A DNA stretch of 64,000 bases from Bdellovibrio sp. SKB1291214 (GTDB lineage: Bacteria > Bdellovibrionota > Bdellovibrionia > Bdellovibrionales > Bdellovibrionaceae), in NCBI RefSeq assembly GCF_002209355.2, contig NZ_CP106855.1, forward strand, positions 186,001-250,000. The letters run 5' to 3'. The notes under the pieces were generated by a model. The model was not told the DNA's origin, searched no databases, and saw only the letters and a program-made list of their open reading frames with translations. The stretch's first letter is position 1; each line of letters starts with the position of its first letter. Position numbers and translations under genes: made by a program. Below are positions 3,913 to 5,879 of this stretch, in pieces.

Positions 3913-3990
3913 CACACCGCCAAATCACTATAATGTTTCAATAAAAGGTGAAAGCCTATGAGGCGAAAAAAACAGCCATGGGAGGCTTTC

Positions 3991-4392
3991 GTGAAACTAT
4001 TTATCGCTATTTTGGCAACTTTGGTTGCGTTCTCTGCAAATGCAGCAGACCGCAAATTAGGCAACGTTATCTTGGTGGAAAGAGAAATTCCAAATCCTTA
4101 CGATCTTTGCGTTAAAAACGTGATCGATAAAAAAGACAAAAAACAGCAGATGTTTTACTGCGTGATCAAGTATACGAAAGCAAACATGGAAATTCCGGTT
4201 AACAGCAAAATCGCAGTTATCAACCAAAACTCTGAAGGTTGCGTAGTTCGGGGTGAAGTTGGCAACGGCAACATGATGATCGGTTTCGGTCCAAACAAAC
4301 AAGAAGTGGACTTCGAAACAGCGAAAGCTTGTTTGGCAAAAGGCCTTGCAGCACACGGTGCAGTTGTCGTTAACGTAATGACTCTTGAATAG
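3991..4392 (+). CDS. Secreted small Cys-containing protein, unknown
   Basis: I place the start at the GTG at 3991 because a strong GGGAGG ribosome-binding site lies 5 bases upstream and the product then opens with a normal signal peptide (KLFIAILATLVAFSANAA, cleavage before DRKL). An upstream ATG at 3958 would add 11 charged residues. The mature part is about 115 residues with four cysteines (DLCV, FYCVI, EGCVV, KACLA) that could form two disulfides in the periplasm. I know no family. The gene ends 8 bp before the long palindrome at 4401. Confidence 0.75.
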   Translation: MKLFIAILATLVAFSANAADRKLGNVILVEREIPNPYDLCVKNVIDKKDKKQQMFYCVIKYTKANMEIPVNSKIAVINQNSEGCVVRGEVGNGNMMIGFGPNKQEVDFETAKACLAKGLAAHGAVVVNVMTLE

Positions 4393-4400
4393 TTCCCCTC

Positions 4401-4456
4401 AGGTAACAGTTCCCTTTTTTAGGGCGGCGCAGCCCTAAAAAAGGGAACTGTTACCT
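4401..4456. repeat. 25-bp perfect inverted repeat with 6-nt loop
   Basis: Arms 4401-4425 and 4432-4456 are perfectly complementary; the loop is GGCGCA. The stem contains a T6 run in the left arm and A6 in the right arm. It sits just after the stop codon of the gene ending at 4392. It may be a bidirectional terminator, or a mobile palindrome, since its right arm resembles the end of the adjacent IS (GCCC, then an A-run, then GGGAAC). Confidence 0.85.
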
Positions 4457-4556
4457 CGGGATAAAAAAAGGGAAGCTTTTGATCTGGGCCCCTTAAAGTA
4501 GACAGATAGAAAAGGCCTCAACTATGATAAGTTGGGGCTTTTACATTTGGAGACTC

Positions 4557-4949
4557 ATGAGAAACAAAATAAGGGACAAGGCGAGATACGAGCGTAATCC
4601 CAACATCAAAAAGGTCACTGAATCCAACATTCAGTTCACCAAAGAATTCAAAATTAAGGCGATTAAGGATTTTCAAAACGGCCATTTGGCCGATGACATT
4701 TTCCTTAAGGCTGAAGTCGATATCTCGGAGTTTGAACCAGGATATCCACGTAAATCCATAGATCGCTGGATTAAAGCTTCTGATGAGTATGGGGTAAAGA
4801 ACTTAGATAATGAACGTCGAGGCAGATCTCGCTCGCAAAAGTTCAAGACGGTGGAAGAAGAGCTGCATTATCTGCGCACGGAAAATGAGTTTTTAAAAAA
4901 GCTCCACGCCTTGGAAGCCGTCTCAGCAAAAAAGAAAAATACGAAATAG
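4557..4949 (+). CDS. IS3-family transposase OrfA
   Basis: OrfA encodes the DNA-binding part of the transposase. From the ATG at 4557 it is 130 residues; an in-frame ATG at 4524 is also possible. It has a helix-turn-helix-like region (FTKEFKIKAIKDFQ to SIDRWIKASDEYG, about residues 28-75) and a C-terminal leucine-zipper-like helix (EEELHYLRTENEFLKKLHALE), the usual OrfA multimerisation element. The heptamer A AAA AAG at 4928-4934 lies in the correct phase for -1 slippage five codons before the stop. Confidence 0.85.
   Translation: MRNKIRDKARYERNPNIKKVTESNIQFTKEFKIKAIKDFQNGHLADDIFLKAEVDISEFEPGYPRKSIDRWIKASDEYGVKNLDNERRGRSRSQKFKTVEEELHYLRTENEFLKKLHALEAVSAKKKNTK
4928..4934 (+). promoter_or_regulatory. 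Programmed -1 frameshift slippery site
   Basis: A AAA AAG is in the orfA reading phase (codons AAA at 4929 and AAG at 4932). After a -1 slip, reading continues from 4934 as EKYEIVFKAKSECPS with no stop into orfB at 4979. This is the standard IS3-family device for making the OrfAB fusion. Confidence 0.88.
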
Positions 4950-4978
4950 TTTTCAAGGCGAAGTCTGAATGTCCATCA

Positions 4979-5797
4979 ATGTCTTTATCGAAGCTTTGCT
5001 CTTCAGCCAAGGTCTCTCGCGGAGGATATTATAAATGGCACAAGAAAAGATCTTTTCAGCTAAATGCAGATGAGCAGCTCATATTTGAGGTCTTTGCCCG
5101 AGGAAAAAGTAAATGGGGATCTCGACGTGTAAAGATGTATTTATTGAGAGAACATGGGTTGATCATGAACTTAAAGAAAGTCCGAAGAATTTTAAGATCG
5201 CTAGGTCTGAAAGCAACGGTTAGACGTAAAAGAAATTCTAAGTTTATTCTGGCTAAGGAAGTCCATCGCGTTTTACCCAATATTCTTCAGCAAAATTTTA
5301 AGGTCGAAGAGCCTGATCGAGTATATTCAACAGATGTGACACATTTATATTATGGAAGTTCCCAAAGAGCTTATCTGTCAGCGACAAAGGATCTTGCAAC
5401 TCGAGAGATCGTTTATCACAGCGTTTCTACAAACACTGACGTAGCATTAGTTACGCAAGGACTAAAAGAGCGACTTCAAAAAGTTTCTCCAGCAAAGCGC
5501 AAAAATTTGGTGATTCACTCAGATCAAGGTGCTGTTTATACGAGCAAAAGTTATCGTCGAATACTAAGCGTTCTAAATATTAAACAATCCATGTCACGCC
5601 GAGGAAATTGTTTGGATAATGCACCGATAGAAAGCTTCTTTGGCCACCTGAAAGACGAGCTGAACAGTTCTAGCTGTCTAACTATCAGAGAATTAAGCGC
5701 CGAAATTGACAGATATATTAAATATTACAATAGCCAACGACCGCAATGGGCATTAAAAGGAAAAACCCCGATTGAATATCGGGGTTCGATTAACTAA
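4979..5797 (+). CDS. IS3-family transposase OrfB (catalytic)
   Basis: OrfB is in the -1 frame relative to OrfA. From the ATG at 4979 it is 272 residues, but its open frame extends back to the slippery site. Residues 5-90 hold the HTH_21-type segment (YYKWHKKR to KKVRRILRSLGL). The integrase core follows with D119 (STDVTHL), D182 (HSDQGAVY) and E218 (NAPIESFFG). The D-62-D-35-E spacing is exactly that of the DDE retroviral-integrase superfamily. The end YYNSQRPQWALKGKTPIEY is the usual IS3 C-terminal motif. No disabling mutation is seen. Confidence 0.95.
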   Translation: MSLSKLCSSAKVSRGGYYKWHKKRSFQLNADEQLIFEVFARGKSKWGSRRVKMYLLREHGLIMNLKKVRRILRSLGLKATVRRKRNSKFILAKEVHRVLPNILQQNFKVEEPDRVYSTDVTHLYYGSSQRAYLSATKDLATREIVYHSVSTNTDVALVTQGLKERLQKVSPAKRKNLVIHSDQGAVYTSKSYRRILSVLNIKQSMSRRGNCLDNAPIESFFGHLKDELNSSSCLTIRELSAEIDRYIKYYNSQRPQWALKGKTPIEYRGSIN

Positions 5798-5879
5798 GCA
5801 GCCTTTTTTACCTGTTCCCTTTTTGGGGCCCAGATCATTTCGCTTCCCTTTTTTTTTACTCATTTTTTAGCTTTGATTC

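Follow-up and report, generated by a model that had tools for sequence, protein, structure and literature searches.

An IS150-subgroup element in the loop of a Bdellovibrio terminator and the hairpin-centered insertion sites of its relatives

Introduction

IS elements are commonly regarded as near-random mutagens. A transposase that seeks the terminator loops of any sequence would land downstream of genes and leave them unbroken. Among the closest described systems, IS1397, ISKpn1, and ISPsy8 are IS3-family elements that enter REP or palindromic units, with target choice credited to the transposase (PMC1525189). IS1272 and TnSha1 of the IS1182 family use hairpin targets with little primary-sequence preference, several of which are proven terminators (PMC4923244, PMC5678879). 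Group IIC introns are described as using intrinsic terminators as low-cost insertion targets (PMC3522654, citing Robart 2007). IS3 is also among the families overrepresented between convergent genes (PMC9208149), and a mutation-accumulation study in Escherichia coli reported a hotspot of new IS150 insertions between trg and mokB, a hok-family locus (PMC5289635). In the open papers searched, we found no report of terminator-loop targeting by IS3 elements or across the IS150 subgroup.

Here we analyze an element in a 64,000-nucleotide stretch of the Bdellovibrio sp. SKB1291214 genome (the window; contig NZ_CP106855.1, positions 186,001 to 250,000). IS1397, ISKpn1, and ISPsy8 resemble it in being IS3-family elements that enter extragenic palindromes, and the parallel with IS1397 and ISKpn1 drawn in an earlier note on the window is apt, since all of these elements enter hairpins. 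The window element likewise lies in the loop region of its palindrome. Those elements, however, are described as using one repeated host family (REP/PU), whereas the targets here are single-copy terminators whose sequence varies between copies. IS1272 and TnSha1 share the choice of terminator hairpins but have a different transposase family, delete or replace part of the hairpin, and make no target duplication; in the window, the hairpin is kept intact, split at the loop, and accompanied by a duplication of the 3–4-bp kind. Group IIC introns are retroelements whose insertion point lies downstream of the stem-loop, in contrast to the insertion within the loop described below.

Results

The features of the element and the terminator that it interrupts are as follows (coordinates are those of the window).

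4463 to 4476, no strand assigned: left part of the interrupted host terminator, with A7 at 4463-4469 and the stem arm GGGAAGC at 4470-4476
4477 to 4479, no strand assigned: left copy of the target duplication TTT, derived from the 4-nt loop TTTC
4480 to 5837, plus strand: IS3-family element of the IS150 subgroup, 1358 bp, with ends TGATCTGGGCCCC / GGGGCCCAGATCA
4510 to 4542, plus strand: predicted left-end inward-facing terminator hairpin, AAAAGGCCTCAAC...GTTGGGGCTTTT, with its T-run inward
4557 to 4949, plus strand: orfA, encoding 130 aa if read from its ATG at 4557; matches NCBIfam transpos_IS3 over 60-121 (E 1.9e-5)
4895 to 4901, plus strand: slippery heptamer A_AAA_AAG in the orfA frame, the expected -1 frameshift site
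4979 to 5797, plus strand: orfB, DDE integrase, first ATG at 4979, frame open from 4889
5761 to 5787, minus strand: predicted terminator hairpin of the right end, inward-facing and antisense, GAACCCCGATATTCAATCGGGGTTT|TT, which overlaps the orfB end
5838 to 5840, no strand assigned: right copy of the target duplication TTT, flanking the right end of the element
5841 to 5857, no strand assigned: right part of the interrupted host terminator, with the loop C at 5841, the arm GCTTCCC at 5842-5848, and T9 at 5849-5857

The element looks intact and has the hallmarks of the IS3 family. OrfB contains the Pfam domains rve, rve_2, and HTH_21 and matches the NCBIfam transpos_IS3 model (NF033516) at E 8.6e-79 and 265 bits against a cut-off of 160. 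The two reading frames overlap at a slippery heptamer predicted to serve -1 frameshifting, the ends are of the TG...CA type with imperfect inverted repeats, and the TTT duplication falls within the 3–5 bp of the family. A quick OrfB tree, the support values of which are SH-aLRT only, places the element in the same 45-row clade as IS150, ISKpn8, and ISEnfa3 (support 91) and thereby in the IS150 subgroup; IS600, ISAba21, and ISEc31 fall outside this clade. The nearest named transposases, those of IS150 and ISKpn8, are about 39% identical to that of the window element, and these two elements share with it their length, ends, right-end antisense hairpin, and clade.

The earlier note had placed an IS3-family element exactly in the 4-nt loop of an intrinsic terminator, and the sequence bears out this reading. 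Deletion of the element and one TTT restores AAAAAAA-GGGAAGC-TTTC-GCTTCCC-TTTTTTTTT, an uninterrupted hairpin with a predicted folding energy of −18.7 kcal/mol. The left neighboring gene (3958-4392) has counterparts in 20 further species of the genus, and the comparison with relatives that the note called for finds the hairpin at the orthologous place. Two sister species that lack the element have an intact terminator between the same two convergent genes as in the window: G022 carries GGGAAGC-TTTC-GCTTCCC, identical to the reconstructed site, and G012 carries GGGAAGC-TTTTC-GCTTCCC. A third species, G011, has GGGAAGC-TGAT-GCTTCCC after the same upstream gene, with a different right neighbor. 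Because sister species keep this uninterrupted terminator, we conclude that a real, conserved, two-way terminator has been split in its loop and that the TTT repeat is a target duplication.

The genome holds two relatives of the window element, for three copies altogether. Copy 3 fits, as it lies in the terminator loop AAAAAGCCGGGT[TTGA]TCCCGGCTTTTT, the right arm of which is also written TCCCGGCTTTTTTTTT. Copy 2 (L035; G000:C1:2947980-2949334) does not fit cleanly: only a half-terminator, CACCGGCTTTTTTT, is found on its right side, the DNA on the left is unrelated, and a target duplication is absent. Its left flank was likely exchanged by a rearrangement after insertion. A cousin of the element in a sister species (G013), with 53% OrfB identity to the window element, is present in eight copies, seven of which sit in the loops of terminators, each with a stem of its own; the duplications at this family's sites include CTT, TTTT, GAA, GAG, CACA, and TA. 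Together with copy 3, these insertions uphold the suggestion that the element may select terminator hairpins. Neither of the two outcomes that the note would have counted as refutation, randomly placed copies and a hairpin missing from relatives that lack the IS, was observed.

To extend the comparison, relatives were gathered from genome collections by transposase similarity alone, and element ends were placed by inverted repeats or at the points where multiple copies diverge. The survey yielded 94 empty sites from about 40 genomes, with hosts among the Bacilli, Clostridia, Bacteroidota, and gamma- and betaproteobacteria, among others. An earlier statistic, any 6 bp of pairing across the site, was uninformative (null 0.69) because A/T tracts pair regardless; we therefore used a dyad score with a threshold exceeded by 0.5% of 40,000 positions drawn from 11 random 20-kb host stretches. 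A strong dyad centered on the target duplication exceeds this threshold at 53 of the 94 sites, compared with 1/27 sites of six other IS3 families (Fisher 3e-7); 21 of these control sites come from three of the same genomes (G154, G157, and G013), and the remaining six come from the sister species G002. By family, the sites above threshold number 7/8 in G013, 8/9 in G154, 5/5 in G163, 6/9 in G153, and 4/9 in G145a, counts in which the insertions are independent but the lineages are not, as copies within one genome share a transposase. Dyad-bearing sites are scattered through the IS150 clade of the quick tree.

Empty sites fold at a mean of −15.6 kcal/mol, as opposed to −7.3 kcal/mol for controls that join the left flank of one site to the right flank of another, and the complementarity is therefore site-specific rather than a matter of composition. 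A search for the dyad axis limited to 2.5 nt could create an apparent centering, so the search was repeated with a 12-nt limit. In this wider search, 43 of 54 strong dyads have their axis within 1 nt of the center of the target duplication, and 51 lie within 2.5 nt, where about 5.5 would be expected if positions were uniform. The duplication measures 3 or 4 bp at 88 of the 94 sites. Loops range from 3 to 9 nt, and stem sequence and stem length vary widely; because stems, loops, and duplicated triplets differ between sites, it is the axis that is followed and not a sequence. AAAA is found on the left in 43 and TTTT on the right in 42 of the 53 dyad-positive sites, and at 43 of the 47 sites classified as terminator loops, at least one flanking reading frame is directed at the site. 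About 40% of the family's sites fall below the strict score; some of these are gapped terminators, to which the simple scorer is blind, and L146, L153, L121, and L133 have no hairpin.

Some relatives appear to use other kinds of target. A Pseudomonas relative (L123) uses a REP-like palindrome that lacks A/T tracts. In the Bacillus genome G145, a more distant IS3 subfamily (G145c; L232-L238) has repeatedly entered the target TTCGACAAA.ACCGGGG.GTGCCTG[T/G]CAC and duplicates CTG, the center of the short, near-constant palindrome GTGC-CTG-GCAC, making this a sequence-constant target. L162 and L173, from candidate-phyla (CPR-like) genomes, adjoin apparent tRNA 3' ends (..GTAGGGTCACAA| and ..CTCCGCCAA|), which suggests yet another target choice for that branch.

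Named members of the clade show related sites. On an Enterococcus plasmid, ISEnfa3 occupies TAGCCC-tcTTGTat-GGGCTA, and IS150 on an E. coli plasmid occupies GTTAAT-TTTC-ATTAAC. The chromosomal E. coli IS150 copies sampled lie in structured hok/ibs hairpin regions, namely at hokE, mokC, ibs, and, in either orientation, hokA. Two hokA copies, L293 and L297, face opposite ways at a shared duplicated triplet (CTT, or AAG on the complementary strand) and therefore represent two independent insertion events at one point of a hok-family hairpin. Unlike the window element, IS150 at hokA and hokE sits off the axis in a hairpin arm; because the hokA point falls in an arm, IS150 itself is the less strict about the axis.

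The element also brings terminator-like hairpins of its own. The left-end hairpin folds at −21 kcal/mol (4500-4550), with 0/30 shuffled sequences scoring as high. Among 28 IS150-group elements, inward terminator hairpins are predicted at the right end in 25 and at the left end in 11; the right-end antisense hairpin is present in IS150 itself, whereas most other IS3 families lack it or have only a weak form, with G145c as an exception. In an alignment of 23 right-end sequences, two of which are overlapping cuts of the window element (effective number 22), both partners vary in 13 of the 16 pairs, and pairing holds in 91% of cells. Covariation scores 0.68, against 0.27 for shuffled and at most 0.18 for slid alignments; coding constraint was weighed here because the hairpin overlaps the end of orfB. 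Although earlier work describes terminators that precede transposase genes (PMC2965389), we found no report in the open papers searched of an antisense 3'-end terminator kept across the IS150 subgroup. The earlier note had expected the two convergent genes to lose their shared terminator unless something replaced it. This concern is partly answered by the inward terminator hairpins predicted at both ends of the element.

Discussion

The comparison of occupied and empty sites shows insertion at the dyad axis of terminator hairpins. Judged by sequence, the elements carry inward terminator hairpins of their own, which the window element has at both ends and almost all of its relatives have at the right end. 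Very probably, the IS150-subgroup transposase directs insertion to the dyad axis, or loop, of a terminator hairpin, and the element would supply replacement terminators. Integration at the hairpin loop would duplicate 3–4 bp of loop sequence. The transposase may sense its target as an extruded cruciform, as a single-stranded hairpin, or as two symmetrical half-sites, and the end hairpins would stop transcripts arriving from both sides, whose shared terminator was split. If the element's hairpins replace the split terminator in this way, insertion would cost the host little.

That a single insertion merely happened to fall in a single loop can hardly be credited. The window alone offers just such a single case, but the G013 copies, the empty terminators of the sister species, and the 53 of 94 sites in relatives argue strongly against it. 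It is also very improbable that the element inserts anywhere, with purifying selection clearing the genic copies and leaving those at gene ends. Many insertions have surely been purged by selection, and the terminator-loop sites are indeed intergenic and mostly downstream of genes. Selection, however, leaves the centering within 1 nt of the dyad axis unexplained, landing beside a terminator should harm less than splitting one, and other IS3 families, sampled mostly from these genomes and facing the same selection, have dyads at 1 of 27 sites. We drop both chance and selection without targeting as main explanations. An attraction of the transposase to gene ends by paused or releasing RNA polymerase, or by the nascent RNA hairpin, would account for the fact that nearly all loop sites lie downstream of at least one gene. 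Coupling to transcription alone does not explain a cut at the dyad axis of the DNA, though, and relatives also use REP-like palindromes; moreover, the occurrence of both orientations and the A/T symmetry, with left A-runs about as frequent as right T-runs, show no transcript polarity. We consider such coupling improbable.

A closer contender, possible but in our view rather unlikely, is that a transposase dimer reads mirrored half-sites on the duplex, each an A-tract with a G+C-rich arm, and that the hairpin never forms. Because terminators are palindromes, the outcome would look loop-directed. The A- and T-tracts at most dyad-positive sites are in keeping with such reading, the near-constant palindrome of G145c resembles the target of a sequence reader, and extrusion is unnecessary for terminators between convergent genes. 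Against this stand the wide variation in stem sequence, stem length, and loop size and the use by the Pseudomonas relative of a palindrome devoid of A/T tracts. Furthermore, insertion points scatter less around the dyad axis (SD 0.9 nt, in a search confined to 2.5 nt on each side) than around the A-run (SD 2.5) or the T-run (SD 3.5). Because the axis is tighter than either run, stems are unlike, and A/T-less palindromes are used, we favor recognition of symmetry or structure over that of a fixed motif. In a comparison of sites, an extruded hairpin and two mirrored half-sites on the duplex would look alike.

Recognition of the terminator's dyad axis by the IS150-subgroup transposase would give a large, well-known IS subgroup a structural rule to obey. 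Such a rule would explain the persistence of these elements at moderate copy number in small genomes, the IS150 hotspots at hok-type loci, and the abundance of IS3 elements between convergent genes. Insertion in terminator loops is apparently a means of jumping that spares genes, and the kept antisense terminator provides a second prediction on how such elements stay harmless. More tentatively, the IS150 subgroup might be a phylum-spanning, structure-guided lineage that reads a hairpin or dyad of any sequence and carries a covarying antisense terminator in replacement of the one it splits. If so, this exchange of terminator for terminator would keep insertions near-neutral.

The DNA beside the split terminator has a palindrome of its own. 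Between the stop codon and the terminator, positions 4394-4461 form a 68-bp near-perfect palindrome (AGGTAACAGTTCCCTTTTTTAGGGC...; −51.5 kcal/mol), which is absent from the orthologous place in the sister species and present in full or half copies at about 20 or more loci of the genome. It is a REP- or MITE-like repeat; Rfam matches to miRNA families all fall below the gathering cut-off and reflect only the perfect hairpin. This palindromic repeat of the genome itself adjoins the element yet escaped insertion. Part of the palindrome, GTTCCCTTTTTTAGGGC (4400-4425), resembles the right end of the element, GTTCCCTTTTTGGGGC (5810-5830); the two may be unrelated, or the palindrome may be a derivative.
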